Below, one piece after another: positions 25,115 through 63,487 of a DNA stretch of 64,000 nucleotides. Numbering within the stretch: the stretch's first letter is position 1; each line of letters begins with the position of its first letter. The stretch spans positions 2,617,001 to 2,681,000 of the forward strand of contig NZ_CP119676.1 in the NCBI RefSeq assembly GCF_029318635.1. The letters run 5' to 3'. The position numbers and the translations under genes are program-made. Below the pieces are notes generated by a model that was given only the letters and a program-made list of their open reading frames with translations, was not told where the DNA came from and ran no database searches. The stretch is from Varunaivibrio sulfuroxidans (GTDB lineage Bacteria > Pseudomonadota > Alphaproteobacteria > Rhodospirillales > Magnetovibrionaceae).

Positions 25115-25978
25115 CTAACCCATGGTGCCCGAAAGGGTCTGGCGGCTGAGCTTGAGGCCGCTCCAGACGATCAACGAGGACAGGCCGAGCAGTAGGAAGC
25201 CGAACGCGGAGCCCAGTTCCCAATTGAAGCGGGTGATGAACTGGGTGTAGATCTGCGCGGTGAACCACATGCTGTCCTTGCCGCCCAATAGAACCGGGGT
25301 CAGATAATTGCCCAGGGTCAGCATGAACACCACGATGCACCCCGAAACGATTCCCGGCATGGCGTGGGGGACGATGATCTCGCGAAGCACGGTCAGGCCG
25401 TTGCCGCCCAGATCGTAGCCGGCCTCGACCAGGCTGTCGTCGAGGCTGTCCAGCGTGGTCACCAAAGGCACCACCATGAACAGCATCGAGGTGTACACCA
25501 GTCCCAACATGATGGTGGCGTCGTTGTAGAGCATTTCCACCGGGGCGCTGGCCAGGCCCGTCCACTGCAGGACGGCGCTGAAAATGCCCGATTCACGCAG
25601 CAGAATCATCCAGCCGAAGGTGCGCACCAATTCGCTGACCCAAAACGGCACCAGACACAACAGAAACAACACCGCCTTCAGGCGTCCGCGCAGCATTTTC
25701 GCGATGTAATACGAAATCGGGAAGGCGACGACCAGGGTGATCGCGGTCGCCACGATCGACATGATCGCGGTGCGCGCGAAGGTGCGCCAATACAAAGGTT
25801 CATTGAAAAATTCGGCGTAATTGGCGAGGCTCGTCCGATAAACCCGGGGCGCGACCCTTTCATGCAGAGAAATCAGGAACATGTCGATGTGGGGCAGGAT
25901 GATCAGCGTGAACAGCCACACCGCCAAGGGGGCCAACAACAGGTAAATGCTCAACTTCCCCGTGGTTGAGGCTTTCAT
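25115..25978 (-). CDS. Pot-type ABC transporter permease (PotB-like)
   Basis: 287 aa with six membrane helices. Helix 1 reads IYLLLAPLAVWLFTLIILPH and the EAA loop is VEAGYDLGGNGLTVLREIIVPHAMPG. The start at 25978 overlaps the stop of the ATPase gene by ATGA, a translational coupling that also argues against the longer in-frame start within the ATPase gene. It forms the heterodimeric membrane channel with the following permease. Confidence 0.9.
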   Translation of the reverse strand: MKASTTGKLSIYLLLAPLAVWLFTLIILPHIDMFLISLHERVAPRVYRTSLANYAEFFNEPLYWRTFARTAIMSIVATAITLVVAFPISYYIAKMLRGRLKAVLFLLCLVPFWVSELVRTFGWMILLRESGIFSAVLQWTGLASAPVEMLYNDATIMLGLVYTSMLFMVVPLVTTLDSLDDSLVEAGYDLGGNGLTVLREIIVPHAMPGIVSGCIVVFMLTLGNYLTPVLLGGKDSMWFTAQIYTQFITRFNWELGSAFGFLLLGLSSLIVWSGLKLSRQTLSGTMG

Positions 25979-27108
25979 GGCTGATCCTCGCCGCTCACCG
26001 CAAAGGCCAGCGCTTTGTCGTGCATCCATCCCAGATAGACCGTTTGCCCGCGCCTTAGGGTGCTGAATTCTCCCGTTTGGGGAAGGGCGACGGTAAGCTC
26101 GCCACCGGTTTTCTCGTCGCGCACCAAAGCTCGGCTGTTGGCGCCGTTGAACAGCAGGTTGACGACGGTACCGTTGAGCCGGTTTTCCAAATCCTGGATG
26201 CGCGCGCTTTCCTGGGAAATGATCACCGCTTCGGGGCGGACGAAAATATCGACCTGTTGACCGACGCTTAAAGCCATGCCGCCCGCCGGGGTCGCCAGCA
26301 GGGAAATACCGTCTTTCGTGGACACCCGCACGCCTGTGCCGTCCGCGCTTTCGACCGCGCCGCGCCAGCGGTCGCTGTCGCCGACGAAGCCGGCGACGAA
26401 GGCCGTCTTGGGGTGATAGTACAATTCCTGTGGGGTGCCGATCTGCTCGAAGCGACCCTTGTTCATGATCGCCACCTGATCGGACATCACCAAGGCTTCG
26501 GACTGATCGTGGGTGATGTACATGAAGGTGGTGCCGAATTGGCTTTGCAATTGCTTGAGTTCGATCTTCATGTGTTCGCGCAGCTTCAGGTCGAGCGCGC
26601 CCAAAGGTTCGTCAAGCAACAGCACAGCCGGGTTCAACACCATGCATCGGGCGATGGCGATGCGCTGTTTCTGTCCGCCGGAAAGCTGGTCGATCTTTTT
26701 GTCGATGGCGTCGGGCAGGTTAACGCGCTCCAGGGCGTCCCGAACCAGGGTGGGAATCTCCCGCTTCGGCGTTCCGCGTCGCTTTAGGCCATAGGCGATG
26801 TTTTCGCCCACCGTCATCATCGGAAACAGGGCGAGATGCTGGAACACCATATTGACGGGGCGTTTGTTGGGGGCGACGCCCAGCATGGATTGCCCCTTGA
26901 TCGCGATATCGCCCGACGTCGGCTCCAAAAAGCCCGCAAGCATGCGCAAAAGGGTTGTCTTACCGCATCCCGAGGGCCCCAGAATGGAAAAGAACGCGCC
27001 GCTGGGGACGGAGAAGGAGACATCGTCCACGGCGAGGAAATCCCCGAAGGTCTTGGTGAGGTTGTGACACTCAAGATCGAGAGCCGGGGTGTCTGCGTTG
27101 GCCATCAT
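25975..27108 (-). CDS. Pot-type ABC transporter ATP-binding protein (PotA-like)
   Basis: 377 aa. Walker A GPSGCGKTT, the signature LSGGQKQR and Walker B VLLLDEP are intact, with the H-loop in YITHDQSEAL. The C-terminal 130 residues form the TOBE regulatory domain typical of PotA-like subunits. The ATG at 27108 is followed by a second ATG; either could start. A 14-bp palindrome and a 13-bp hairpin lie just upstream, so this gene may be expressed at a lower level than the binding-protein gene before it. Confidence 0.92.
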   Translation of the reverse strand: MMANADTPALDLECHNLTKTFGDFLAVDDVSFSVPSGAFFSILGPSGCGKTTLLRMLAGFLEPTSGDIAIKGQSMLGVAPNKRPVNMVFQHLALFPMMTVGENIAYGLKRRGTPKREIPTLVRDALERVNLPDAIDKKIDQLSGGQKQRIAIARCMVLNPAVLLLDEPLGALDLKLREHMKIELKQLQSQFGTTFMYITHDQSEALVMSDQVAIMNKGRFEQIGTPQELYYHPKTAFVAGFVGDSDRWRGAVESADGTGVRVSTKDGISLLATPAGGMALSVGQQVDIFVRPEAVIISQESARIQDLENRLNGTVVNLLFNGANSRALVRDEKTGGELTVALPQTGEFSTLRRGQTVYLGWMHDKALAFAVSGEDQP

Positions 27109-27171
27109 GCCGCCTATATTCTCCGTAAAATCGTTGGGTCGGGATACCCCTGATCGCGGACGCTTGAAAAA

Positions 27172-27185
27172 ACAATCGCGATTGT
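27172..27185. promoter_or_regulatory. 14-bp perfect palindrome upstream of the PotA-like gene
   Basis: ACAATCGCGATTGT reads the same on both strands and lies 64 bases before the ATPase start. It could be an internal operator; alternatively, followed by TTTTTT on the minus strand, part of a weak terminator. Confidence 0.4.
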
Positions 27186-27195
27186 GAAAATGCGC

Positions 27196-27231
27196 AAGGG
27201 GCGCCCGGAGAATTGATCCCGGGCGCCCCTT
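27196..27231 (-). other. Intercistronic 13-bp hairpin after the binding-protein gene
   Basis: Arms AAGGGGCGCCCGG (27196-27208) and CCGGGCGCCCCTT (27219-27231) pair perfectly around a 10-base loop. There is no U-tract. It lies 15 bases after the stop of the binding-protein gene and should protect that mRNA from 3'-exonucleases or partly attenuate downstream genes. Confidence 0.75.
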
Positions 27232-27246
27232 CGTGTTCGATCGGCC

Positions 27247-28320
27247 TTACTTGGCGGCTTTCACGTGGTCGAGAACCTTGCCTTCCATATCTTCAAGACC
27301 GGAGGGCACCGGCGGGTACCATTTGATGTTGTCGATGGCGGCGGGCGGGAAGGTCTTCTGATACAGCGCGCGTTTGCTGGCTTCGACATAGGCGTCCGAA
27401 CCCTTGGACGCGGTGAAGTTGCCGGCGGCGGCGGTCACCATCGCCGCGATCTTGGGCTGCATCACGAAGTTGATCCACTTGTAGGCGGCGCTTTCGTTCT
27501 TGGTCTTGCGCGGCAGGGCGAAGGTATCGACCCAACCCAGGGCGCCCGATTTCGGCGCGATGGTCTGAATGTCGGGGTTTTCCGCGCTCAATTTCCAGCC
27601 CGAGCCGTCCCAAGCCATGGCGGCCACGACTTCGCCCGAACGCATCAGGTTAAGCAGGGCGTCGCCGCCGGACCAATAGGCTTTGACATTGGACTTGCAG
27701 GAAATCAGCTTCTTTTCGACCTTTTCCATGATCACTTTGTATTTGGAGCTGTCGTTGTACGCGGCGAACGGATCCATCCCCATGGCGAAGGCGAAGGCGA
27801 TCAGGGTCGGACGTTTCAGGCGGTACGACACCTTTCCGGCGTATTTGGGATCGCACAGGTCGGTGTAATCCTTGACGTCGGGCGCTTTCTTGACGTTGAC
27901 CGTCAGGGCGCTGGTGCCCCAGACGTCGGGAACGCCATAGACCTTGCCGTTATAGGTGGTGTTCTTTTTGGTGCCTTCCAGAAGCGAAGGGATGAACAGC
28001 GACGTGTCGATCTTGGACAGGTCGATCGGCTTGTAGATGTTGAAATCGCCCTGGGCGCCGGAGATGCGGTCCTGCGACGGTTGAACCAGATCGAACCCGG
28101 CCCCGCCGGTGGCGCGCAACTTGGAGATCATCTCCTCGTTGTTGGAATTGGTGACCTGGACGTCGATGCCGGTTTCGGCCTTGAACATCTGCACCACTTT
28201 CTCGGGGGCGTATCCACCCCACGTCAGCAGACGCAAGGTTTCCGCCTGAGCGCCGCCCGCACTAAGGGCGATGCCGACGCCGGCGATCAGGCCTGCAATC
28301 ATTTTCGTTCTGTTCAACAT
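27247..28320 (-). CDS. Pot-type ABC transporter periplasmic binding protein
   Basis: 357 aa. A cleavable signal peptide (GLIAGVGIALSAGGAQA) precedes the mature sequence ETLRLLTWGGYAPEKV, the typical opening of PotD-like solute-binding proteins. The pocket segments GGAGFDLVQPSQDR, YGVPDVWGTSAL and MAWDGSGWKLS are in the expected order. I chose 28320 because GGAG precedes it by nine bases, whereas the ATG at 28335 has no ribosome site. First gene of the operon. The ligand could be a polyamine or, given the phosphodiesterase at the operon end, an ethanolamine- or choline-containing compound. Confidence 0.88.
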   Translation of the reverse strand: MLNRTKMIAGLIAGVGIALSAGGAQAETLRLLTWGGYAPEKVVQMFKAETGIDVQVTNSNNEEMISKLRATGGAGFDLVQPSQDRISGAQGDFNIYKPIDLSKIDTSLFIPSLLEGTKKNTTYNGKVYGVPDVWGTSALTVNVKKAPDVKDYTDLCDPKYAGKVSYRLKRPTLIAFAFAMGMDPFAAYNDSSKYKVIMEKVEKKLISCKSNVKAYWSGGDALLNLMRSGEVVAAMAWDGSGWKLSAENPDIQTIAPKSGALGWVDTFALPRKTKNESAAYKWINFVMQPKIAAMVTAAAGNFTASKGSDAYVEASKRALYQKTFPPAAIDNIKWYPPVPSGLEDMEGKVLDHVKAAK

Positions 28321-28335
28321 GTTGGAATTCTCCAT

Positions 28336-28395
28336 GGGTATGTAAATTTAGGGGTACGTGAATTTTTGGGCTATGTGATGGGCTGTGTGAATAGT
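28336..28395 (+). repeat. Degenerate tandem repeats upstream of the binding-protein gene
   Basis: Four blocks start with GGG and continue TATGTAAATTT, GTACGTGAATTT, CTATGTGAT and CTGTGTGAAT, at 28336, 28351, 28368 and 28380. Spacing is 12 to 17 bases. They may be a cluster of weak regulator sites or a decayed repeat. Confidence 0.4.
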
Positions 28396-28838
28396 GGGGC
28401 GATGATGTGTATGTCTACGCCCCCTTTTTCAATTTTTTCGCGTCCGAAAGCGCACCGGCGCTATCCCAATCTCCGTTCATGCCTCGGTATCTGTTCATGT
28501 CATCGAAAGCCCTGCTTCTTCAAAACCGGGTTTCACCGGGACGACCTTCGCCATCGCGCCGCGTTCCCCCGCCGCCTTCGCCCACCCATCGGGCCAGGCA
28601 AGCACGGGGATGTTGCTTTGCGAACATCCGGACGAGGCGTGTATAAGGAAGAAATGTTTCGTAGATATGACGGTTTCGCAGAGATCGCTGAATTATCTAT
28701 TACAGCCGCCGAAACCCCCGGAACCACGATCTCCCCCCTTAAAATACGTGTGTTCACCCCGGACGAGCGCCGGATGGGTGACGGGTCGTCGTCGCCCTTG
28801 TTTGCACAGTAGTAAGGGCGTTTTTCTTTGGCAACAGC

Positions 28839-28868
28839 AAATTTTCCGCTCCGGCGCGCGGAAAATTT
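28839..28868. other. 11-bp inverted repeat, possible terminator or small-RNA end
   Basis: AAATTTTCCGC (28839-28849) and GCGGAAAATTT (28858-28868) pair perfectly around an eight-base loop. The A/T-rich base of the stem resembles a bidirectional terminator, but no gene is known to end here. Confidence 0.4.
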
Positions 28869-29085
28869 TCGAAAGTGAACGGCTCGGGCGGCGCGACGTT
28901 AAATAAAAAAAACGGTGATATCGTTAGCGGCATGAAACACATTGATTTTTTTCAGGTTATCCGAAATATTCGCAAACGAATAAGAGGACGAGGTGGAATA
29001 GGGCGATTCGCGGAAAACGTCCCGCCGTCCGTCGTACGGGAAAAAAACGCGCCCGGGTCAATCCGGTGGATAACCAGAGGACGAA

Positions 29086-29958
29086 ATGACGGCATTACCA
29101 AAAATAAAGCCCCCCCGGATACTGGTGGTCGATGGCTATCCGAAGGACCACCGCGCCGAATTAACCGAATGCGCCATGACCGTGGCGGCGGAGCTGTACG
29201 TCGCTATGCTCCGCCGCTGCCATCCGGGCGTGGCGACGGAGGTCCTCTTTCCCTCGGACCCCGACGCCGCGCTTCCTTCGGGGGCGGCGATCGGCGATTA
29301 CGACGGCGTGGCGTGGACGGGTTGCTCGCTGAACGTTTACGATGACGATCCCCGGGTTCATCGCCAAATCACCCTGGCGCGCGCCGCCTTCGCGGCCGGC
29401 GTGCCGTCGTTCGGCAGTTGCTGGGCGGCGCAAATCGCGGTCGTCGCCGCGGGGGGAAGCGTCGCCGCCAACCCACGCGGACGGGAGATGGGCGTGGCGC
29501 GTAAGATTGCGCTGACGGCGGAAGGCCGGGCCCATCCGATGTATGTGGGCAAGCCCTCGGTCTTCGACGGCTTTATCAGCCATGTTGACGAGATCACGCA
29601 CGTTGCGCCGGGAACGCAGGTGTTGGCGAGCAACGCCTTCACCCGGGTTCAGGCGGTCAGCGTCAATTACGCCCGGGGGACGTTCTGGAGCGTCCAATAT
29701 CACCCCGAATACGATCTGCGCCAGATGGCCCGGCTGACCCAGTGCCGCGCCAAGGTTCTGGTCAAGGCAGGGTTTTTCTCCGGCGATGCGGCGGCGAAGG
29801 CCTATATCGAGCGGCTCGACACCCTGCACGGCGACCCCGCGCGCGGCGACATTGCGTGGGAATTGGGCCTCGACGACGATGTGCTCAACGCCGATATCCG
29901 CCAAATCGAAACCCGGAACTGGATCGAACATCTGGTGATCCCGGCGATGCGACGTTGA
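29086..29958 (+). CDS. Class I glutamine amidotransferase-like protein (paralogue A)
   Basis: 290 aa of the GMP synthase-like GATase1 superfamily. The nucleophile elbow FGSCWAAQ supplies Cys, and QYHPEYD supplies His and Glu of the triad. It lacks any synthetase domain, so it is a free amidase or gamma-glutamyl hydrolase. It is a clear paralogue of the protein at 37809-38693, with shared ANPRGRE and GRAHPMY segments. It lies 16 bases upstream of a GlpR-like regulator and is divergent from the Pot-type importer. Substrate unknown; a gamma-glutamyl amide is my inference. Confidence 0.85.
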   Translation: MTALPKIKPPRILVVDGYPKDHRAELTECAMTVAAELYVAMLRRCHPGVATEVLFPSDPDAALPSGAAIGDYDGVAWTGCSLNVYDDDPRVHRQITLARAAFAAGVPSFGSCWAAQIAVVAAGGSVAANPRGREMGVARKIALTAEGRAHPMYVGKPSVFDGFISHVDEITHVAPGTQVLASNAFTRVQAVSVNYARGTFWSVQYHPEYDLRQMARLTQCRAKVLVKAGFFSGDAAAKAYIERLDTLHGDPARGDIAWELGLDDDVLNADIRQIETRNWIEHLVIPAMRR

Positions 29959-29974
29959 ACGGAGGGGGCGTGAA

Positions 29975-30769
29975 ATGAACCGTATGCCCTCCGGCGAGGA
30001 TCCCGGGTTGAACGCGCGCCAGCGCGAAATGCTCGATCTCGCCCGCCGCCGCGGCTTCGTCGCCATCGAGGCCATGGCGCGCCATTTCAAGGTCACCGCC
30101 CAGACCGTGCGCCGCGACATTAACGTGTTGTGCGAACGGGGTATCTTGCACCGCTACCACGGTGGGGCGGGGGTGTCCTCAAGTGTCGAAAACATGTCCT
30201 ACGACACCCGACAGGTCATGTTTTTAAAGGAAAAGCAGCGCATCGCTAAAATGGTGGCGGCGCACATTCCCGACCGGGCGTCGCTGTTCGTCAATATCGG
30301 CACCACCACCGAGGAGGTGGCGCGGCACCTCAAAGCCCATCAAAGCCTGAGAATCATCACCAACAATCTGAACGTCGCCACCATTCTTTCGGCGCGGCCG
30401 CGTTTCGAGGTCATCGTCGCCGGCGGCGTGGTGCGGACGCGCGATCGCGGCATTATCGGCGAGGCGACAATGGACTTCATCAACCAATTTAAGGTCGATT
30501 GCGCGATCATCGGGATTTCCGGGATCGACGCCGACGGCGCGCTTTTGGATTTCGACTACCAGGAGGTCCGCGTCGCCCAGGCGATCGTCAACAATGCCCG
30601 CCGGGTCTATCTGGTGGCCGATCACAGCAAGTTCGAACGCAGCCCGATGGTCCGCCTGGGGCACATCGCGCAAATCGACGCCCTGTTCACCGACAGGCCG
30701 CTGTCCACGGCGATGGCCGAGGTTTTCGCCCGCGCGCAGACGGCGGTTTATGTCGCGGATGCTTCGTAG
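29975..30769 (+). CDS. DeoR/GlpR-family transcriptional regulator
   Basis: 264 aa. The N-terminal helix-turn-helix (IEAMARHFKVTAQTVRRDINVL) is typical of DeoR proteins, and the C-terminal sugar-isomerase-like sensor includes NIGTTTEEVARHL, ITNNLNVA and ADHSKFERSP. GlpR-type members sense glycerol-3-phosphate, which the nearby glycerophosphodiesterase would release. A GGAGGGGG ribosome site precedes the ATG. It probably forms an operon with the amidotransferase gene. Confidence 0.9.
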   Translation: MNRMPSGEDPGLNARQREMLDLARRRGFVAIEAMARHFKVTAQTVRRDINVLCERGILHRYHGGAGVSSSVENMSYDTRQVMFLKEKQRIAKMVAAHIPDRASLFVNIGTTTEEVARHLKAHQSLRIITNNLNVATILSARPRFEVIVAGGVVRTRDRGIIGEATMDFINQFKVDCAIIGISGIDADGALLDFDYQEVRVAQAIVNNARRVYLVADHSKFERSPMVRLGHIAQIDALFTDRPLSTAMAEVFARAQTAVYVADAS

Positions 30770-30778
30770 CGCGGCGGC

Positions 30779-31636
30779 CTAACCGTCGCGTAGGTGCTCC
30801 AACTGTTCGATTCTCCTGCGGGTGCTTTGCCAGTTTTTTTGCCCGGTCGCTTCCAACAGGGCTTCGATGAAGACCACGATCGCAGCGGCGCTATCCCACG
30901 TGGTGCCGGTCTCGATGCGCAACGGAAAAATGTGCTTGGCGAAGCGGGCGATCGGAGACAGCCACTGGTCGGTGACGAGGACGACGTTGACGCCCTGTTG
31001 GTGCGCGGTTTGGGCGAAGCGTACGATGTCGTCTTGATAACGCCGAACGTCGAACGCCACCAGGGTGTGACGTTTGCCCATGTCGAGCAAATGGTCGGTA
31101 AGAAAAGAATTTTGCCCTGATATTTGGTGTACGCGCGGACGAATGGTGCGTAGGTGTTCGTACAGATAATGCGCCAGCGCACCGCTCAAACGACCGCCTA
31201 AAATATGCACCGGACGCTTGGTGTCGGCGATCAATGCCGCGGCGCGATCAAATTCGGCGGGGGACAAGCCTTCCAGGGAATCATGAATGTTCGCGCTCGC
31301 CATTTCGGAAAATTGAGGCAAGAGCCCATCGCGTTTTTGCGGATGGACGGCGTCGGGACGCTGGTTTTTACTGAGTGGCGAGCGTAGGCGCTCCTCCAAT
31401 TCCTGGCGTAACTTCGCTTGGAATTGTGGGTATCCGGAGAACCCCAATTTCCCTACGAAACGCAAGACCGTGGGCGCACTGACGCCGGCCTGTGATGAGA
31501 AATCCGCGACCGTGCTCAGTCCTGAAATGGGGTAGTTGGACAAGAGTATTTGCGCCAGCTTTCGTTCCGAAGCGGTGAACCGTTCGAAATGGCCATGAAT
31601 TTGTTCGGCGATGGTGTGCGCGGCATGTGTCGTCAA
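30779..31636 (-). CDS. RpiR/MurR-family transcriptional regulator
   Basis: 285 aa. The N-terminal RpiR helix-turn-helix contains LSTVADFSSQAGVSAPTVLRFVGKLGFSGYPQFQ, here noted as separate helices, followed by a SIS phosphosugar-binding domain (PVHILGGRLSGALAHYLYEHL). It is convergent with the DeoR gene and divergent from the ethanolamine-type permease gene, which it probably regulates; two related 16-bp sites in the gap support this. The effector is unknown. Confidence 0.88.
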   Translation of the reverse strand: MTTHAAHTIAEQIHGHFERFTASERKLAQILLSNYPISGLSTVADFSSQAGVSAPTVLRFVGKLGFSGYPQFQAKLRQELEERLRSPLSKNQRPDAVHPQKRDGLLPQFSEMASANIHDSLEGLSPAEFDRAAALIADTKRPVHILGGRLSGALAHYLYEHLRTIRPRVHQISGQNSFLTDHLLDMGKRHTLVAFDVRRYQDDIVRFAQTAHQQGVNVVLVTDQWLSPIARFAKHIFPLRIETGTTWDSAAAIVVFIEALLEATGQKNWQSTRRRIEQLEHLRDG

Positions 31637-31703
31637 TGCGGAGGGATCTCCTTAGTCTTGCGCGTCATCAAAAGGTCTAGCATTAAAGGTTTAGCGTCGA
31701 AAA

Positions 31704-31719
31704 TGTAACAAACGTAACA
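31704..31719 (+). promoter_or_regulatory. Putative RpiR operator, copy 1
   Basis: TGTAACAAACGTAACA, containing GTAACA-type half sites in direct orientation. A related copy in opposite orientation lies at 31902-31917. Position is 68 bases upstream of the RpiR start. Confidence 0.5.
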
Positions 31720-31901
31720 ATCAAAGGTGCGCTCGTTCATGTCAAGATACAGCCATCGGAAAACTTGATTCGGCCCTTGCAATCGTATTGCGCGCATAAC
31801 GGCATGCCATGCCGACGTGTAAAAGTCTATGATAAACCCACCGTAACATATTGAATTTAAGTCATTATGAAAAAAACAATTGAGTATTCGGAGTAAGATA
31901 A

Positions 31902-31917
31902 TGTAACGTTTGTTCCA
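31902..31917 (-). promoter_or_regulatory. Putative RpiR operator, copy 2
   Basis: On the minus strand this reads TGGAACAAACGTTACA, matching copy 1 at 14 of 16 positions. The inverted pair flanks the A+T-rich core of the divergent promoter region. Confidence 0.5.
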
Positions 31918-32131
31918 CAAAAAATAAAAATTAAAGGGGGCGCGCTTTACTTCCGGCGATATCGAGTGGCCTCTCATAAAAAAAGAACGTCAACGGCGTG
32001 CCGGTTTGCGCGCGTTCGGGCGTTAGGTCTCGGGTGCGTAAGGGGTGGGGGCGCTGTCTGATTTCAGTGGCCTCCTTTGGATACGGACGGAGATATTTTT
32101 CCGTCCCCGTAATCTCGAAGGGTGATTGACC

Positions 32132-33643
32132 ATGTCAGATAAAAAGAAAGTCGGCAGTGTGACCTATCGTCAGGCCGACGACGGATATTTCGAAAACCGC
32201 GGCTTGCGGCGTTACGCCGGCGTTTGGTCGTTATGGGCGCTGGGGGTCGGCGCGGTTATTTCCGGCGATTTCTTCGGATGGAACTTCGGCCTTACGTCGG
32301 GCGGCTTCGGCGGCCTTTTGTACGCCACCGTGATCATCGCCGTGATGTACATCGGGATGTGTTATTCCCTGGCCGAAATGTCGCCCGCGCTGCCTCACAC
32401 CGGCGGCGCGTATTCGTTCGGACGCACGGCGATGGGGCCGTGGGGCGGGTTCATCACGGGGCTTGCCGAAAACATGGAATACGTGCTCACCCCGGCGGTG
32501 ATCGTGGTCGGAATCGGCGGTTACATGGGGGCGATCTTCAACGATCTGTTCGGCGTGCAGATCGCCGATCCGGTATGGTGGCTGGTCTCCTATGCCGTCT
32601 TCGTCGGTCTCAATTTCTGGGGGGTGGAACTGACGTTCAAGTTTTCGGTGTTCATCACCTTCCTCGCCCTGTTGATCCTGTTGGTGTTTTGGATCGGCGC
32701 CATTCCCCTGTTCCATTGGGACAACCTGCTCACCGTCGCGCCCGATCCGGGTCATGGCGCTTGGTTGCCCAAGGGGATGATGGGGATCGCTTATGCGTTG
32801 CCCTTCGCCATGTGGTTTTATCTGGCGATCGAACAGTTACCCCTGGCGGCTGAAGAATCCCACGATCCGGCGCGCGACATGCCCAAGGGGTTGCTTTACG
32901 GCATCCTGACGCTGATCATCGCCTCGGTGCTGACGTTGTTCCTCAACGCCGGCATCGCGCCCGGCGCGGCGGTGGTCGGCAAATCGTCCGAACCGTTGTT
33001 CCTGGCCTTCAAGACCATCTTCGGCGAAGGCGCGGGCGCGGCCCTCTTGGCGTTGATCGCGGTGGCCGGACTGATCGCCAGTTTTCACACCATCATTTAC
33101 GCTTATGGGCGCAACATCTATTCGCTGTCGCGGGCGGGCTATTTTCCGCACTGGATGTCGGTGACCCACAGCAAACGCAAGACGCCGCACGTGGCGTTGG
33201 TTTTGGGCGCGGTCGTGGGCTATGTGGTGGCCCTGATTATCCAGTTCGGCGACAAGATATTCGGCGGCGTTCCGGTCGGCGGCGTGTTGCTCAACATGGC
33301 GGTGTTCGGCGCCGTGATCGCCTATGTCATGCAGATGATTTCGTTCGTGATCCTGCGCAAGAAATATCCCGACATCGAACGGCCCTATGTTAGCCCGCTG
33401 GGCAACGGCGGGGCGATCGTCTCCGCGCTGATCGCGGCGATCACACTGGTTTTTCTGTTCTTTACCCCCGACTACCGTCCGGGCATTTACGGATGCGCGG
33501 CGTGGTTCGGCGCGGGACTGGTTTACTTCTACTTCGTCGGGCGGCATAAACTGATCCTGTCCCCCGAGGAAGAATTCGCGATCACCGGCGGCCACCATGG
33601 CCATCCGGAGACGGAAGGTTACGGCCACACCGCCATCGAGTAA
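32132..33643 (+). CDS. Ethanolamine-type amino acid/amine permease
   Basis: 503 aa with 12 membrane helices of the APC superfamily. The segments GVGAVISGDFFGWNFGL, GGAYSFGRTAMGPWGGF and the AEESHDPARDMPKG loop match bacterial ethanolamine permeases (the Eat/2A0305 group) better than general amino acid permeases. The C terminus is His-rich. The ATG at 32132 follows AAGGGTGA; the TTG at 32126 is in frame but too close to it. It is the first gene of the run of catabolic genes extending to 38693. Confidence 0.85.
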   Translation: MSDKKKVGSVTYRQADDGYFENRGLRRYAGVWSLWALGVGAVISGDFFGWNFGLTSGGFGGLLYATVIIAVMYIGMCYSLAEMSPALPHTGGAYSFGRTAMGPWGGFITGLAENMEYVLTPAVIVVGIGGYMGAIFNDLFGVQIADPVWWLVSYAVFVGLNFWGVELTFKFSVFITFLALLILLVFWIGAIPLFHWDNLLTVAPDPGHGAWLPKGMMGIAYALPFAMWFYLAIEQLPLAAEESHDPARDMPKGLLYGILTLIIASVLTLFLNAGIAPGAAVVGKSSEPLFLAFKTIFGEGAGAALLALIAVAGLIASFHTIIYAYGRNIYSLSRAGYFPHWMSVTHSKRKTPHVALVLGAVVGYVVALIIQFGDKIFGGVPVGGVLLNMAVFGAVIAYVMQMISFVILRKKYPDIERPYVSPLGNGGAIVSALIAAITLVFLFFTPDYRPGIYGCAAWFGAGLVYFYFVGRHKLILSPEEEFAITGGHHGHPETEGYGHTAIE

Positions 33644-33658
33644 TGGCGCGCCGTCGCC

Positions 33659-33692
33659 GCGGCGGACCGGGGAGGGGATCCCGGTCCGCCGC
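33659..33692 (+). other. Intercistronic 13-bp hairpin after the permease gene
   Basis: Arms GCGGCGGACCGGG (33659-33671) and CCCGGTCCGCCGC (33680-33692) pair perfectly around an eight-base loop, 16 bases after the permease stop and without a U-tract. Probably an mRNA stabiliser or attenuator between transporter and enzyme genes. Confidence 0.75.
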
Positions 33693-33771
33693 GCTTGGCG
33701 CCTCTTCGCCATACCCACCATTGCAGTCATCGCGAGGGGCGCGCCCCTCCGGGCACAGGAGCGTACGAAAA

Positions 33772-35142
33772 ATGAACCCAAGACACGTCAAAACGGCGGC
33801 GGACGCCCTTAAGGCGCTGGACGCCTATAATCTGGACCATGTGAAGGTTGGGGTTTTCGATGTCGATGGCGTCTTGCGCGGCAAATACATGTCGCGCAAA
33901 AAGTTCGAATCGGCTCTGAAAGGCGGTTTTGGCTTTTGCGACGTCGTCCTGGGATGGGACTCGCGCGATCAGCTCTATGACAACGTCACCTACACGGGCT
34001 GGCATACCGGCTACCCCGACGCCCCGGTGCGGGTGCTGCCGGAAAGCTGCCGGGCGATCCCCTGGGAAGACAACATGCTGCTTTTCCTCGGAGAATTTTC
34101 CGGCGCGGCCGAGGAAATCTGCCCGCGCGGGACCTTGAAGCGGATCCTCGCCCTGGCCGACGAGATGGGCTACCGGGTCAACGCCGGGGTCGAATATGAA
34201 TTTTTCGTCTTCGACGAGACGCCCGATTCCGTGCGCGAGAAAAATTTTCGTAACCTCAAACCGATCGCGCCGGATTATTTTGGCTATTCGGTGGTCCGCA
34301 ACACCGTGCATTCGGACCTCTACCGGGACATTCTGTCCGGCTGCGAGGCGATGGACATGGGTCTGGAGGGGCTTCACGAAGAAACCGGCCCCGGCGTCCT
34401 GGAGGCCGCGATCGCGGTCGATGACGCCCTCGCCGCCGCCGATAAGGCGGCCTTGTTCAAAACCTTCATCAAGGTGATGGCGCAAAAGCGCGGCCTGATG
34501 GCCACCTTCATGGCCAAATGGTCGCCCGACTGGCCGGGCCAAAGCGGTCACATTCATATTTCCCTGACCGACAAGAAAACCGGCAAGAACGCCTTTTACG
34601 ACGCCGCCGAGGATCACGCCATGAGCGACGTTCAGCGCCGGTTCGTCGGCGGCCAGCAAAAGCTGATGCCCGAATTCCTGGCGATGATCGCGCCCACGGT
34701 CAACGCCTACACGCGCCTGATCCCCGGGTTTTGGGCGCCGACCGAATCGACCTGGGGGATCGAAAACCGGACCTGCGCCCTGCGCGTCATCCCGGGCGGC
34801 GAAAAATCCCAGCGCGTCGAATACCGCGTCGCCGCGGCCGACGCCAATCCCTATATCGCGCTGGCCGCGGCGATCGCCTCGGGTCTTTGGGGGGTGCAAA
34901 ACCAGACCCAACCGGAAGCGCCGGTCGCGGGCAACGCCTACGACAAGACCTTCCCCAAAAAGCTCCACCTTCCCGACACGTTGTGGGAGGCGGCGCGGCG
35001 TCTGAAAGCCTCCAAACCGGCGCGCCAGTTGTTCGGCGATCCCTTCGTCGCGCATTTCGCTGCGACCCGCGAATGGGAGGAAAGGGAATTTCGCCGTCAT
35101 ATCACCGATTGGGAGATGGAACGGTACTTCGAAATCATTTAA
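33772..35142 (+). CDS. Glutamine synthetase-like gamma-glutamyl-amine ligase (paralogue 1)
   Basis: 456 aa. Glutamine synthetase motifs are visible: the N-terminal grasp-like segment with GVFDVDGVLRGKYM, VEYEFFVFDE, HEETGPGVLEAA, GQSGHIHISL, ENRTCALRV and the substrate loop VEYRVAAADANPY. Divergence from the canonical enzyme and its place between an amine permease, dehydrogenases and an amidotransferase point to ligation of glutamate to an amine, as PuuA does for putrescine, IpuC for isopropylamine and GlnA4 for ethanolamine. Ethanolamine is my favoured substrate by context. ATG at 33772 follows AGGAG by ten bases. Confidence 0.88.
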   Translation: MNPRHVKTAADALKALDAYNLDHVKVGVFDVDGVLRGKYMSRKKFESALKGGFGFCDVVLGWDSRDQLYDNVTYTGWHTGYPDAPVRVLPESCRAIPWEDNMLLFLGEFSGAAEEICPRGTLKRILALADEMGYRVNAGVEYEFFVFDETPDSVREKNFRNLKPIAPDYFGYSVVRNTVHSDLYRDILSGCEAMDMGLEGLHEETGPGVLEAAIAVDDALAAADKAALFKTFIKVMAQKRGLMATFMAKWSPDWPGQSGHIHISLTDKKTGKNAFYDAAEDHAMSDVQRRFVGGQQKLMPEFLAMIAPTVNAYTRLIPGFWAPTESTWGIENRTCALRVIPGGEKSQRVEYRVAAADANPYIALAAAIASGLWGVQNQTQPEAPVAGNAYDKTFPKKLHLPDTLWEAARRLKASKPARQLFGDPFVAHFAATREWEEREFRRHITDWEMERYFEII

Positions 35143-35213
35143 GAAGCGGGAAATCGGCCCCCTCGCGCCGCGAGAGGCCTCCTGTGCAACGCTTTTATGC
35201 AAACGAGTAAAAA

Positions 35214-36602
35214 ATGACGACACTGAAAACCATATCCCCGGTGGACGGCAGCGTTTATGTCGAGCGCGATCTCGCCGGTCCCCGGGAGATCGACCACGCC
35301 TTAAGCCGCGCCAAGGCGGCGCAAAAATCCTGGCGCGAAACCCCGCTTGCGACCCGCCGGGAACTGCTCGGCAAGGCGGTTGACGCCTTCCTCGCCAAGG
35401 GCGGCGACATCGCCCGGGAATTGACCTGGCAGATGGGCCGCCCGGTTACTCAAACCCCGAGCGAGGTGGCGGGGTTCGAGGAACGCGCCCGTCATATGCT
35501 CGCGATCGCCCCCCAGTCCCTGGGCGATGTGGTTCCGCCGCAAAAAGAAGGTTTCAACCGCTTCATTCGCCGCGTGCCGTTGGGCGTCGTCGCCGTCATC
35601 GCGCCGTGGAACTATCCGTATTTGACCTCGGTCAACGCGGTTATTCCGGCCCTGATGGCGGGCAACACGGTGATTTTGAAGCATTCCCATCAGACGCCGC
35701 TGTGCGCCGAACGCTACGACGAAGCGTTCAAGGCGGCGGGCCTTCCCGAGGGGGTGTTCCAATACCTGCACCTGTCGCACGCCGACACCGAGGCGCTGAT
35801 CGCCGACGACCGGGTCGATAGCGTCAACTTCACCGGCTCGGTCGGCGGTGGCGCGGCCATTGAGCGGGCGATCGGCGGGCGCTTCATCGCTTCGGGATTG
35901 GAGCTGGGTGGTAAGGATCCGGGCTATGTCCGCCCCGACGCCAACCTTGCCCATGCGGTGGAAAATCTGGTGGACGGATCGTTTTTCAATTCCGGCCAAT
36001 CGTGCTGCGGAATCGAACGGATTTATGTGCACAAGGATGTTTACGACACTTTCGTCGAGCGCTTCGTCGAATTGACGCGGACCTACCGCCTGGGCAACCC
36101 ACTGGAGGCGGACACCAACCTGGGGCCGATGGTGCGTACATCGTCGGCGCAGTTCGTTCGCGGCCAAATCGCCGAGGCCGTCGCGGCCGGGGCGAAGGCC
36201 CTGATCGACCCCGCCGCGTTCCCCGCCGACCGACCGGACACCCCCTACATGGCGCCCCAGGTCCTGGTCGATGTCGATCACACCATGCGCGTGATGGCCG
36301 AGGAATCGTTCGGTCCCGTGGTCGGGATCATGAAGGTCGGCGGTGACGACGAGGCGCTCGCCCTGATGAACGATAGCGAATTCGGCCTTACCGCATCGCT
36401 GTGGACCGAGGACGAGGATGCGGCGCTGGCGCTGGCGGGGCGGGTCGAAACCGGCACCGTGTACATGAACCGCTGCGATTATCTGGACCCCGCCCTGGCG
36501 TGGACCGGGGTCAAGAATTCGGGCCGCGGATGCACGCTGTCCCAGATCGGCTATGAAAGCCTCACCCGGCCAATGAGTTTCAACTTCCGCACCAAGATTT
36601 AA
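35214..36602 (+). CDS. NAD(P)-dependent aldehyde dehydrogenase
   Basis: 462 aa. The catalytic Glu lies in LELGGKDPG and the nucleophilic Cys in FNSGQSCCGIER; the cofactor segment is APWNYPYLTSVNA and the binding loop is FTGSVGGG. It oxidises an aldehyde to a carboxylate. In this operon it would follow the iron-type alcohol dehydrogenase and act on a gamma-glutamylated amino aldehyde or the free aldehyde. It is shorter than the PuuC-like enzyme at 61935-63440 and not closely similar to it. Confidence 0.9.
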   Translation: MTTLKTISPVDGSVYVERDLAGPREIDHALSRAKAAQKSWRETPLATRRELLGKAVDAFLAKGGDIARELTWQMGRPVTQTPSEVAGFEERARHMLAIAPQSLGDVVPPQKEGFNRFIRRVPLGVVAVIAPWNYPYLTSVNAVIPALMAGNTVILKHSHQTPLCAERYDEAFKAAGLPEGVFQYLHLSHADTEALIADDRVDSVNFTGSVGGGAAIERAIGGRFIASGLELGGKDPGYVRPDANLAHAVENLVDGSFFNSGQSCCGIERIYVHKDVYDTFVERFVELTRTYRLGNPLEADTNLGPMVRTSSAQFVRGQIAEAVAAGAKALIDPAAFPADRPDTPYMAPQVLVDVDHTMRVMAEESFGPVVGIMKVGGDDEALALMNDSEFGLTASLWTEDEDAALALAGRVETGTVYMNRCDYLDPALAWTGVKNSGRGCTLSQIGYESLTRPMSFNFRTKI

Positions 36603-36634
36603 GTGTGGGATTTCTTTTTGAAGGCGCTACGAAA

Positions 36635-37804
36635 ATGACGAAAATTATTGCGGGAAACTGGAATTTTCCGACCAAGATCACATTTGGACCGGGGACGATC
36701 GCCCAATTGGCCGACAGTTGCGCGGCGCTGGGCATACGCCGGCCCCTGCTGATTACCGACCGGGGCCTGAGGGACCTGCCGATGATCGCCGCCGCGATCG
36801 CGGCCAACGCGGCGGCGGGCCTGCCGACGGGCCTGTTCGCCGAGGTCAAGGGCAACCCGGTCGGCAAAAATGTTGAGGACGGCGTGGCGGCCTTTCGCGA
36901 CGGCGGGCATGACGGCGTTATCGCCTTCGGCGGCGGCAGCGCCCTGGACGCCGCCAAGGCGGTGGCCCTGATGGTCGGCCAGGATCGCCCGTTGTGGGAT
37001 TTCGTCGATGAGGGCGATAACTGGCTGCGCGTCAACGAAGACGGTATGGTCCCCGTGGTCGCGGTGCCGACCACGGCGGGCACCGGATCGGAAGTCGGTC
37101 GGGCCAGCGTGATTACCGACGAGGACGGGCATCGAAAAAAGATCATTTTCCATCCCCGGATGATGCCGGGGATCGTGATTTCCGATCCCGAGTTGACGGT
37201 GGGTCTGCCCGCCCATGTCACCGCGGCCACCGGGATCGATGCCTTCGTGCACTGTTTCGAGGCTTACTGCGCCCCCGGATACCATCCGATGGCCGAAGGC
37301 ATCGCCCTGGAAGGCATGCGTCTGATTGCGGGCGCCCTGCCCAGAGCCTATGCCGACGGCGCCGACGTGGTCGCGCGCGCCGACATGTTGGCGGCGGCGT
37401 CGATGGGCGCGGTCGCGTTTCAAAAGGGCCTGGGCGGCGTCCATGCCCTGGCCCATCCGATCGGGGCGGTATACGACACCCATCACGGCCTCGCCAACGC
37501 CATTTTACTGCCCTACGTGATGCGCGCCAATCGGGCGGCGATCGCGCCCCGGATGGGGCTCGTCGGGCGGGTCCTGGGGCTGGATCGGGCCGATTTCGAC
37601 GGCGTTTTCCAGTGGGCCCTGGAGTTCCGCAAGACCCTGGGAATCGCGAACGCCCTGAAGGACATCGGCCTCGACGCCGGGCGCGCCGACGACATCGGGG
37701 CAATGGCCGCCGCCGATCCTTCGGCGGGGGGCAATCCGATCGCCATCGGTGCCGCCGGTTATGGCGATATTTTCCGCAAGGCCGTGTCCGGCGATCTGGG
37801 CTAG
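36635..37804 (+). CDS. Iron-containing alcohol dehydrogenase
   Basis: 389 aa of the group III (Fe-ADH) family. The nucleotide-binding GGGSALDAAK and the TTAGTGSEVG motifs are present, and metal-binding histidines are seen in DAFVHCFEAY, HPMAEGIALEG, and GVHALAHPIGAVYDTHHG. It oxidises a primary alcohol to an aldehyde with NAD(P). In context the substrate would be the hydroxyethyl group of gamma-glutamylethanolamide or another amino alcohol. The ATG at 36635 is preferred over the GTG at 36605 because it restores the normal N terminus. Confidence 0.9.
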   Translation: MTKIIAGNWNFPTKITFGPGTIAQLADSCAALGIRRPLLITDRGLRDLPMIAAAIAANAAAGLPTGLFAEVKGNPVGKNVEDGVAAFRDGGHDGVIAFGGGSALDAAKAVALMVGQDRPLWDFVDEGDNWLRVNEDGMVPVVAVPTTAGTGSEVGRASVITDEDGHRKKIIFHPRMMPGIVISDPELTVGLPAHVTAATGIDAFVHCFEAYCAPGYHPMAEGIALEGMRLIAGALPRAYADGADVVARADMLAAASMGAVAFQKGLGGVHALAHPIGAVYDTHHGLANAILLPYVMRANRAAIAPRMGLVGRVLGLDRADFDGVFQWALEFRKTLGIANALKDIGLDAGRADDIGAMAAADPSAGGNPIAIGAAGYGDIFRKAVSGDLG

Positions 37805-37808
37805 GGGA

Positions 37809-38693
37809 ATGGTCTCGCCCCTCGCCTTCCTGGTTTTCGACGGCAATACCGAGGCCGTCAACGACCGTAGCCGCGCCTTGGGCGGGGTCGGCACGGGCAA
37901 GGCGTACGCGCGCGTTCTGCAAGGGCTTTGTGGAGACCTGGGACGGGTGGCGCGGTGCGTCGTCGTCGCCCCGGCGGACAACGGCGCGGGGTGCCTGCCC
38001 GTCGGGGTCGCGCTGGAGGATTTCGACGCCATCGTGTGGACGGGATCGGCGCTCAATGTCTATGCCGGCGGCCCCGAGGTCGAAGCCCAGATTGAATTCG
38101 CCCGCGCCGCGTTCGACAGCGCGGCGCCCGTTTTCGGAAGTTGTTGGGGTCTTCAGGTGATGACCGCGGCCTTGGGCGGCGTGGTGCGGGCCAACCCCAA
38201 GGGCCGCGAGATCGGCATCGGTCGCGCCATCACCTTGACCGACATCGGGCGGGGGCACCCGATGTACCGGGGGAAACCGGGTCCCTTCGACGCCATCACC
38301 GTGCATCTAGACGAGATCGAGACCGCGCCGCCGGGCGGTGTGGTTCTGGCCGCAAACGCGGTCTCGGCCATTCAGGGCATGGATATTCGCCAAGGAAAAA
38401 AATCGTTTTGGGGGGTGCAATATCACCCCGAATTCGATTTGGCCGAAATCGCCCGCGTCCATCAGCGTTACGGGTCGCGTTTGATCGATGAGGGATTTTT
38501 TGGCGATGCGCGGGAACTTGAGACCTACATAGATGGCCTGTTCGAACTCGACGGTAACCCCGAAGACGCGGCCCTAGCGCAAAAAATGCGGATCGGGATC
38601 GACGTTCTCGACCCCGTGCGGCGTATGGCGGAACTGCGCAATTGGATCGCCGTCAAGGTGATCGGCGACGAAGCCGCCGTCTATCCCCGATAG
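37809..38693 (+). CDS. Class I glutamine amidotransferase-like protein (paralogue B)
   Basis: 294 aa. Nucleophile elbow FGSCWGLQ and the His-Glu segment QYHPEFD are intact. It is a paralogue of the protein at 29086-29958. It lies four bases after the alcohol dehydrogenase stop and ends the catabolic operon. By analogy with PuuD and IpuF it may cleave the gamma-glutamyl group from the oxidised product and recycle glutamate. It is of a different subfamily from the PuuD-like protein at 49794-50591. Confidence 0.85.
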   Translation: MVSPLAFLVFDGNTEAVNDRSRALGGVGTGKAYARVLQGLCGDLGRVARCVVVAPADNGAGCLPVGVALEDFDAIVWTGSALNVYAGGPEVEAQIEFARAAFDSAAPVFGSCWGLQVMTAALGGVVRANPKGREIGIGRAITLTDIGRGHPMYRGKPGPFDAITVHLDEIETAPPGGVVLAANAVSAIQGMDIRQGKKSFWGVQYHPEFDLAEIARVHQRYGSRLIDEGFFGDARELETYIDGLFELDGNPEDAALAQKMRIGIDVLDPVRRMAELRNWIAVKVIGDEAAVYPR

Positions 38694-49421: not shown

Positions 49422-49793
49422 GAGAGACGGCCCTCTTTTTGCGCGTGGTGGTGACTGTTCGGGTCAAGCTCGATCCTCAATAATGCGGTGTTGCACCGGG
49501 TCTTTGTCAAGACTATCCAACATTTTTTTGATGCTCCGCGGATAGCTTTAATTTTTAAAAACACTTGGCGATGCGTAAAAATCATACAAATTAATTTTAT
49601 ATAACAATCATGTATAAGGATTATTTTAGCTTGTCGTTGTGATAATCTTCTCTCTTGTAAGGTTTTTTTCGCCATGATAGCGTTAAAAATAATCATCAAG
49701 CATTCAGGGTGCGCGCGCCTTTTTTAATGGCAGGTGCGGCGCGACGCGAAATGTGCGACGCTAAAGCGTTTCAACAGGGAAGTGACTTCGATC
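49422..49793. other. Divergent promoter region between puuB and puuD
   Basis: A 372-base gap, strongly A+T-rich at about 49540-49710. It must contain promoters for both directions and is the natural place for PuuR-type operators, but I find only a weak inverted repeat TTATA/TATAA (49597-49617). A minus-strand frame at 49418-49699 looks non-coding. Confidence 0.6.
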
Positions 49794-50591
49794 ATGCGCC
49801 CCAGGGTTAAGCCGGTTGTTGGTGTATCGACGTGCGTGAAGGATGTTGACGGCTTCGCCAATTACGCCGTCGCCATGAAGTATGTTGACGCCCTGGCCCA
49901 CGGCGGCGACGTCACGCCGATTTTGATCCCCGCGCTGGGGGAAATCCTGGCCATCGACGATATTCTGGGATTGGTCGATGGATTGATGTTGACGGGCAGC
50001 ATGTCCAATATCGAACCGCACCACTACGGCGCGCCGCCCAGCGTTTCGGGGACCCTTCACGATCCTCTGCGCGACGCCACAACCTTGCCGATGATCCCCG
50101 CCGCCGTCGCCGCCGGTCTTCCGGTGTTTGCGATCTGCCGCGGCTTTCAGGAATTGAACGTGGCCTATGGGGGAACCCTGCATCAGCGCGTTCACGAAGT
50201 CGCGGGCAAGATTGATCATCGTGAGGATCGCAGCTTAACGCCGGAAGGTTATTTCGCCCCGGTCCACGACATCGCGCTTGCGCGTGAGGGGTATTTGGCG
50301 CGCTTGTTGGGGCGCGAAAAAATTCGCGTCAATTCCTTGCACGGCCAGGGGATCGACCGCCTGGGCGATGCCCTGACGATCGAAGGGGTCGCCCCGGACG
50401 GTCTGATCGAGGCGGTCAGCGTCACGGGGGCGCAAACCTTCGCCCTTGGGGTGCAATGGCATCCCGAATGGAAGGTGATGGAAAACGCCATCTCGCGCGC
50501 CCTATTTGCGGCCTTTGGCGACGCCTGCCGCGCGCGCCTCGATAGCGCCGCCGCCCGTTGGCGGTCCGATGGAGGGGGCGAACATGCCTGA
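49794..50591 (+). CDS. puuD: PuuD-like gamma-glutamyl-GABA hydrolase
   Basis: 265 aa class I amidotransferase-like hydrolase (peptidase C26). Nucleophile elbow FAICRGFQE, the SLHGQGID segment and the triad His-Glu in VQWHPEW match PuuD. It releases glutamate and GABA from gamma-glutamyl-GABA. The ATG at 49794 gives the usual start (VKPVVGVSTC); upstream in-frame GTG adds an unlikely basic stretch. It overlaps the puuA start by eight bases. Confidence 0.9.
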   Translation: MRPRVKPVVGVSTCVKDVDGFANYAVAMKYVDALAHGGDVTPILIPALGEILAIDDILGLVDGLMLTGSMSNIEPHHYGAPPSVSGTLHDPLRDATTLPMIPAAVAAGLPVFAICRGFQELNVAYGGTLHQRVHEVAGKIDHREDRSLTPEGYFAPVHDIALAREGYLARLLGREKIRVNSLHGQGIDRLGDALTIEGVAPDGLIEAVSVTGAQTFALGVQWHPEWKVMENAISRALFAAFGDACRARLDSAAARWRSDGGGEHA

Positions 50592-51924: not shown

Positions 51925-51987
51925 GGTATTGAACGTGCCGATCGCTTGGTGATGGTCGGTGGAATTTTTGGTTTGGAGCACCTTCTT

Positions 51988-53358: not shown

Positions 53359-53451
53359 GCGGCGTTTTTGGGGACGACGGATTTGGGGAGCGTCCGTAAG
53401 TTTGCGTCGCGCCGTGTGGCGTGACGTTTGCGATTTATCTGGGAGGTGAAC

Positions 53452-54549: not shown

Positions 54550-54564
54550 CCGGGGGTGTGGCTC

Positions 54565-54597
54565 CGGCGTCCCGTGGCGTTCGGCCGCGGGACGCCG
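54565..54597 (+). other. Intercistronic 13-bp hairpin after potF
   Basis: Arms CGGCGTCCCGTGG (54565-54577) and CCGCGGGACGCCG (54585-54597) pair throughout with one G-U wobble around seven bases. It lies 16 bases after the potF stop and has no U-tract. Confidence 0.72.
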
Positions 54598-54626
54598 TCT
54601 CGCGTGCGAACAGGAGTAATCTTATC

Positions 54627-55775: not shown

Positions 55776-55784
55776 GAGGAAACG

Positions 55785-56738: not shown

Positions 56739-56751
56739 GGAGGGCGCGATT

Positions 56752-57573: not shown

Positions 57574-57598
57574 GATGAAACGCCAAAAAGAGGACGCC

Positions 57599-58975: not shown

Positions 58976-59048
58976 TCGGGTTGATTATCCCAAGGGCGCG
59001 CGCCAAACTCGGCGGATTGTTTTATCACTTTGAATATCGGGAGAGACC

Positions 59049-59963: not shown

Positions 59964-59977
59964 ACGGCGGGGCCGAT

Positions 59978-60880: not shown

Positions 60881-60905
60881 CTGTCGTTCCTTAAGATGGA
60901 CCGGC

Positions 60906-61928: not shown

Positions 61929-61934
61929 CGCCGG

Positions 61935-63440: not shown

Positions 63441-63487
63441 GATGGCTTCTCCGTTGGGTGCGGCGGTTTTTCGATAACGGCGGCGGA

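Follow-up and report, generated by a model that had tools for sequence, protein, structure and literature searches.

A candidate ethanolamine operon in Varunaivibrio sulfuroxidans with a ligase clade apart from that of the described gamma-glutamylation pathway

Background

Nitrogen and carbon are abundantly available in the form of ethanolamine from phosphatidylethanolamine, and isopropylamine is known to be processed under gamma-glutamyl protection in the IpuC/IpuF pathway. Here we analyse a putative ethanolamine operon of Varunaivibrio sulfuroxidans, located at positions 32132-38693 of a stretch of 64,000 nucleotides (RefSeq assembly GCF_029318635.1, contig NZ_CP119676.1, positions 2,617,001 to 2,681,000 of the forward strand; hereafter the window), which encodes a permease, a glutamine synthetase (GS)-like ligase, an aldehyde dehydrogenase (ALDH), an iron-containing alcohol dehydrogenase (Fe-ADH) and a class I glutamine amidotransferase (GATase). 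An earlier note on this DNA had proposed that these genes process ethanolamine or another amino alcohol through gamma-glutamylation and oxidation, and had stated that no proteobacterial pathway with this exact set had been characterised.

Such a pathway has been described in Phaeobacter sp. MED193. According to Westermann et al. 2023 (PMC10132767), the operon of this strain comprises genes for an RpiR regulator, the gamma-glutamylglycine amidohydrolase GGAH, the tripartite ATP-independent periplasmic (TRAP) transporter EtoVWX, the ethanolamine gamma-glutamylase ETAGA and two dehydrogenases, named gamma-glutamylethanolamide dehydrogenase and gamma-glutamylacetylaldehydeamide dehydrogenase, and phosphorylethanolamine raised EtoX, the ligase ETAGA, the ALDH, the alcohol dehydrogenase (ADH) and GGAH (Table 2 therein). 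The same text cites the pathway as occurring in Chromohalobacter and Agrobacterium too, the same steps are proposed for C. salexigens in a review (PMC9397018), and structure 4UAB, corresponding to Csal_0678, was solved with bound ethanolamine (PMC12410723). In Streptomyces coelicolor, according to PMC6529630, GlnA4 makes gamma-glutamylethanolamide, the first step that we propose here, and its cluster holds an ALDH, a transporter and, in a figure legend, a glutamine amidotransferase; it differs in having a short-chain dehydrogenase instead of an Fe-ADH and in that a protein of the N-formylglutamate amidohydrolase (FGase) family is named for the last step. The likeness of the GlnA4 pathway to the operon is drawn from this description.

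Given the pathways described in MED193 and Streptomyces and proposed for C. salexigens, the chemistry proposed in the earlier note is very likely right, while its statement of novelty has to be given up. What survives of that statement is narrower: no account of a set combining the ligase clade of the window with a class I GATase was found in the literature, in a search that most subscription papers fell outside of, and a query for ethanolamine permease, glutamine synthetase and iron-containing alcohol dehydrogenase returned no paper. If the Agrobacterium locus of the described pathway proved to carry the ligase type of the window, the novelty would shrink further.

Results

The oxidative pair is shared with the described pathway

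The five genes are intact open reading frames in one orientation on the + strand, as the earlier note had them, with intergenic gaps from a few bases up to about 130. They encode an APC-family EAT-like permease (32132-33643; TIGR00908, 371.6 bits), the GS-like ligase (33772-35142; PF00120, 338 bits), the ALDH (35214-36602; PF00171, 415 bits), the Fe-ADH (36635-37804; PF00465, 167.6 bits, and PF25137, 138 bits; the start at ATG 36635 is our assignment in a frame that begins at GTG 36605) and the class I GATase-like hydrolase (ATG 37809 to 38693; PF00117, 59.4 bits). The hydrolase presents the Cys, His and Glu of the triad at GSCWG and YHPE, which we take to be the class I GATase triad motifs. 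Divergently from the operon, an RpiR/MurR-family regulator with HTH_6 and SIS domains is encoded on the - strand (30779-31636; PF01418, 55.8 bits; PF01380, 63.1 bits).

A contig scan with the 4UAB sequence, of which the best 80 of 584 relatives were taken, yielded the loci of MED193 (L104, as Roseobacter sp. MED193) and Chromohalobacter (L074), the latter with a binding protein 100% identical to the 4UAB sequence. The window ALDH is 56% identical to its counterpart in the MED193 operon and 54% to that of Chromohalobacter, the Fe-ADH 54% and 55%, respectively, and the order GS-ALDH-ADH is common to all three loci. The RpiR protein is 37% identical to that of either operon. In contrast, the window ligase is only 32% (MED193) and 30% (Chromohalobacter) identical to the operon ligases, and the window GATase has no counterpart in the MED193 and Chromohalobacter stretches at E <= 1e-8: the hydrolases of both are FGase-family proteins (PF05013), that of the window belongs to PF00117. 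Likewise, where MED193 has a TRAP transporter the window has an APC permease. No EtoX TRAP binding protein was found in the window's genome at E <= 1e-60, the EAT-like permease standing in its stead.

Our results suggest that the operon probably serves the B12-independent use of ethanolamine as a nitrogen and carbon source via gamma-glutamylation. We read it as the EtoX/ETAGA pathway with the same oxidative pair and, as far as these sequence comparisons go, with a ligase and a hydrolase drawn from other families and the TRAP importer exchanged for a permease. The permease, probably an ethanolamine importer, would bring in the substrate; the ligase, a proposed gamma-glutamylethanolamide synthetase, would use ATP to join the ethanolamine amine to the gamma-carboxyl of glutamate; the Fe-ADH, as gamma-glutamylethanolamide dehydrogenase, would oxidise the CH2OH group to the aldehyde and the ALDH, as gamma-glutamylaminoacetaldehyde dehydrogenase, the aldehyde to gamma-glutamylglycine, from which the GATase, as gamma-glutamylglycine hydrolase, would release glutamate and glycine. 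As oxidation would take place on glutamate-tagged ethanolamine, free aminoacetaldehyde would never be formed. Glycine could be cleaved further, a GcvP-family protein being encoded in the genome, and the RpiR protein is probably the regulator that controls the operon. We infer the substrate, the products and the direction of the reactions, as well as the regulation.

The 54-56% identity of both dehydrogenases to ethanolamine-pathway proteins, together with the ligase flap substitution and the EtoX neighbours described below, lends good support to the chemistry of the earlier note, with ethanolamine converted through gamma-glutamylethanolamide and gamma-glutamylglycine to glycine and glutamate. 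The note saw no EutBC among these genes, and a search of the complete genome, a single contig of 3.07 Mb, likewise gave no EutB (PF06751).

Bridging loci keep the pathway logic and mix its parts

From the 76 genomes of the class that bear a window-type ligase (see below), 40 loci were chosen for spread over families and identities and not at random, and were scored by tblastn for the ALDH (at least 50% identity, same strand, within 5 kb) and the Fe-ADH (at least 45% identity, same strand, within 6 kb). The ALDH was found in 20 of them, the Fe-ADH in 27, both in 18 and at least one in 29. The complete order permease-GS-ALDH-FeADH-GATase is repeated in L066 and L049, and the series ligase-ALDH-FeADH-GATase is present on a Legionella lytica plasmid. 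Since the same order and the linkage of ligase and dehydrogenases recur in other genomes, the gene set is not a chance neighbourhood.

Some loci bridge the window and the described operons. In L053, from the window genome's own order, an RpiR gene (its product 55% identical to the window RpiR) and genes for the three TRAP subunits (S/L/P) precede a window-type ligase (66%), ALDH (70%), Fe-ADH (71%) and class I GATase (47%), and the TRAP binding protein matches PDB 4uab with 564 bits. EtoX homologues lie near window-type ligases in 3 of the 40 loci (L053, L048 and L046), and FGase-family hydrolases in another three entries of the scoring (L038, L049 and L068; 3/40) as well as in the plasmid locus L190. 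Permease homologues of 53-62% identity stand immediately 5' of the ligase in L039, L049, L055 and L066, and a homologue of the operon GATase closes the operon in L053, L066 and the Legionella lytica plasmid. These loci indicate that the types of ligase, hydrolase and importer mix while the logic of the pathway stays constant.

Other gene combinations were observed beside ligases of this type. On a Rhizobium leguminosarum plasmid (L157:5059-9302), a window-type ligase gene and an ALDH gene have upstream of them genes for a PuuD-like hydrolase, a LysE-family protein and a GMC-family oxidoreductase, and an Fe-ADH is missing there; the GMC enzyme is perhaps an alternative alcohol oxidiser in the same pathway. 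A gene of cluster c25, whose L057 member belongs to the 2OG-Fe(II) oxygenase family, adjoins divergent window-clade ligases (58-63%) in L056, L057 and L058, and cluster c6, of the ELFV amino acid dehydrogenase family (L057 member tested), occurs in 6 of the 40 loci (L037, L038, L042, L057, L058 and L068). The c25 and c6 proteins may act on the product or on an amine of another kind.

The window ligase belongs to a clade of its own

The ligase falls well below curated cut-offs for glutamine synthetases (223 vs 429 bits for GlnA, TIGR00653; 216 vs 470 for type III GS). Following Salmonella numbering, taken from PMC6529630 and known GS motifs, the metal ligands E129, E131, E212, E220, H269 and E357 and the glutamate-binding R321 and R359 are kept in 49/49 window-clade ligases. 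N264 is not conserved in the clade; the other metal, glutamate and ATP residues of the window ligase are kept. At the flap position E327, which according to PMC6529630 is needed by GSI for glutamine formation, the window ligase has W, as have 47 of the 49 clade members (the other two have F), and all 38 described-type ligases have F; the same text gives a bulky non-polar residue at this position for GlnA4 (F) as for PauA7 (W). The replacement of E327 by W or F argues against an ordinary glutamine synthetase and is in keeping with a ligase acting on a larger amine, but taken alone it cannot single out ethanolamine as the substrate.

In a quick tree of 94 GS-like sequences, 49 labelled window-type and 38 described-type by best BLAST match, the two types form separate clades parted by branches with SH-aLRT values of 99-100. 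The window-type group takes in two divergent plasmid rows (L191 and L192), whose ligases may act on other amines. The stems between the clades sum to about 2.7 changes per site, and the branch setting off the described type measures 0.51 in the ALDH tree and 0.57 in the Fe-ADH tree, which were built from similar but fewer loci and rooted by midpoint only. As the end-branch medians are alike across the three trees (0.25, 0.28 and 0.30), the ligase clades stand about five times further apart than the dehydrogenases that accompany them. With this rooting, we make no claim on which of the two ligases is the older.

We take this pattern as replacement of the ligase within a conserved oxidative module, the alternative being a burst of ligase evolution; it is replacement rather than fast evolution that we infer from the branch lengths. 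We also favour, less firmly than the function of the operon itself, the view that the ligases of the window clade constitute a second family of gamma-glutamylethanolamide synthetases, recruited separately, which would have replaced (or been replaced by) the described ligase in a shared ALDH/Fe-ADH module, with the hydrolase exchanged too, so that a bacterium would hold one ligase or the other, the window version being the commoner in the class. Should the function hold, this would constitute a clean ligase replacement in a pathway whose dehydrogenases stay homologous, and the annotation as glutamine synthetase would be corrected for a large clade. Surveys of the pathway by EtoX or the described ligase would miss genomes such as that of Varunaivibrio sulfuroxidans.

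As for the described type, PDB entry 5dm3, deposited as an L-glutamine synthetase, is 99.6% identical over 445 residues to the Chromohalobacter operon ligase (L074:11052-12425), so that the described ethanolamine ligase seems to have a structure already, deposited under a different name. Entry 11zs groups within the described-type clade.

The two ligase types avoid each other across the class

A sample of 387 genomes of the class was screened, with at most 4-5 candidates scored per genome; these genomes are related to one another, and the P values are thus indicative only. The window-type ligase was found in 76 genomes, the described type in 51, EutB in 31 and EtoX in 56; matches at least 60% identical to the respective query numbered 65 for the window type and 30 for the described type. 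No genome held both ligase types (0/387, 10.0 expected, P = 6e-6), nor did any genus (0/264, 7.1 expected, P = 2e-4). Six window-type matches are 44-48% identical, with perhaps another function, and without them the shared genomes remain 0 against 9.2 expected. Six families (f17, f69, f70, f92, f94 and f136) hold both types in different genera, f69 on the strength of divergent matches, and the exclusion is therefore not merely one of deep phylogeny.

EtoX occurs in 28 of the 51 described-type genomes. Outside the latter it is present in 17 of 76 window-type genomes vs 11 of 260 others (P = 6e-6); across all 387 genomes the excess is smaller (17 vs 11.0 expected, P = 0.026). The EAT-like permease is found in 15 of the 76, and adjoins the ligase in 7 of those 15. 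In the window's own family the ligase occurs in one of 18 genomes at E <= 1e-90, namely this one. As a separate observation, three EutB carriers of one genus (G043, G153 and G234) hold EtoX homologues each with one in-frame TGA, possibly a shared pseudogene that remained when the Eut route took over, or a match running past the end of the gene.

Discussion

The case for ethanolamine as substrate is built on the bridging loci, on the homology of the dehydrogenases and on the fact that the two ligase types exclude each other; the ligase sequence is no part of it. Several results weigh against this reading. The permease stays slightly under the TIGR00908 ethanolamine permease cut-off (371.6 vs 381.75 bits). 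The ligase matches the described ethanolamine ligases at just 30-31% identity (194-204 bits), the window's PuuA-like genes reaching 132-172 bits, and is nearer to a protein annotated as IpuC (40.5%, 296 bits); the D50 position carries D in 42 of the 49 window-clade rows, in a poorly aligned loop; and the literature searched yielded no activity measurement for a ligase of this clade. Among the 40 loci, 11 have neither dehydrogenase at the thresholds used and only 5 have a class I GATase near the ligase, and the Burkholderia, Rhizobium and Rhodobacteraceae plasmid relatives have no Fe-ADH beside it. Of the 76 window-type genomes, 59 are without EtoX and 61 without the EAT-like permease at E <= 1e-60. 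EutB and the window-type ligase share 3 genomes vs 6.1 expected (P = 0.11), a weak avoidance that is absent at the genus level (4 shared vs 3.8 expected).

Some of these points would suit another small amino alcohol, such as L-alaninol (2-aminopropanol), 3-aminopropanol or isopropanolamine, which would yield alanine, beta-alanine or a similar acid and leave ethanolamine at most a side substrate: any primary amino alcohol fits the same chemistry, and both the permease score and the closeness to IpuC lean that way. We consider this unlikely in view of the EtoX orthologues near the ligase in three bridging loci, the association with EtoX outside described-ligase genomes, the homology between both dehydrogenases and those of the ethanolamine pathway and the mutual exclusion with the described ligase. 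The likeness to IpuC is itself partial. In Paenarthrobacter aurescens TC1, the locus with the ipuC annotation shares the GS-like ligase and has amidotransferases nearby; it differs in its P450/ferredoxin genes, in that no Fe-ADH is annotated in the stretch and in an ALDH just 33% identical. The annotated IpuC falls outside both ligase clades in the tree, and no P450 or other oxygenase, a trait of the IpuC pathway, was found among the five operon genes scanned.

A polyamine gamma-glutamyl synthetase of the PuuA, GlnA2 or GlnA3 type, in an operon that serves polyamine catabolism, seems far less probable still, in spite of the common superfamily and the Pot-like ABC transporter genes upstream (25115-28335, - strand). 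The PuuA/PuuD putrescine pathway has the same logic of gamma-glutamyl ligation, aldehyde oxidation and amidotransferase; however, diamines need no alcohol dehydrogenase, the match to gamma-glutamylputrescine synthetase (GGputSyn, NF045547) reaches 193.7 bits against a cut-off of 650, and the window holds a separate Puu-like cluster of its own at 49734-63527, with PuuD-like, two GS-like, aminotransferase, PotFGHI-like and PuuC-like genes. Least credible of all is a ligase that makes glutamine from ammonia amid unrelated neighbours, for which the GlnA match and the D at the approximate D50 position might be adduced; the score below the GlnA cut-off, the W at E327, the GlnA-like protein with GSI motifs encoded elsewhere in the genome (L004) and the conserved linkage with ALDH and Fe-ADH stand against it. 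Ethanolamine use through gamma-glutamylation remains the likeliest function.

Genomic context

Three features on which the earlier note was silent are the divergent RpiR regulator, a second class I GATase and the polyamine-type cluster downstream. In the region between the RpiR gene and the operon (31637-32131) a single weak palindrome was seen, and no regulatory site is claimed; promoter-like matches around the operon were not above chance, terminator-like matches numbered 12 vs 8.4 +/- 3.8, and an Rfam scan of 24000-46000 gave no match. A PDB search with the ALDH gave no match at E <= 1e-80. Two PF05013 proteins are encoded in the genome, outside the operon.

The polyamine-type (Puu/Pot-like) cluster starts about 12 kb downstream of the operon and comprises genes for a PuuD-like hydrolase, a GS-like protein (50506-51924), a class III aminotransferase, a PotFGHI-like ABC transporter, a second GS-like protein (57545-58975), a Dyp-type peroxidase (at 59049) and a PuuC-like ALDH (61935-63527). 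Its two GS-like ligases differ from one another and, with the GlnA-like protein, make up the three further GS-like proteins found in the genome.

The second class I GATase (29086-29958, + strand) shares 45% identity with the GATase of the operon and keeps the triad motifs; its membership in the pathway, as a paralogue of the operon hydrolase, is uncertain. The predicted structure of the operon GATase folded with this paralogue alone was of poor quality, with a mean pLDDT of 54.9. In L054 a homologue of the second GATase separates the ligase gene from the ALDH gene. Within 25115-30769, the Pot-like ABC genes (- strand) are followed by the second GATase and a GlpR-like DeoR regulator (+ strand), and the L054 ligase locus contains a homologue of this DeoR regulator as well.

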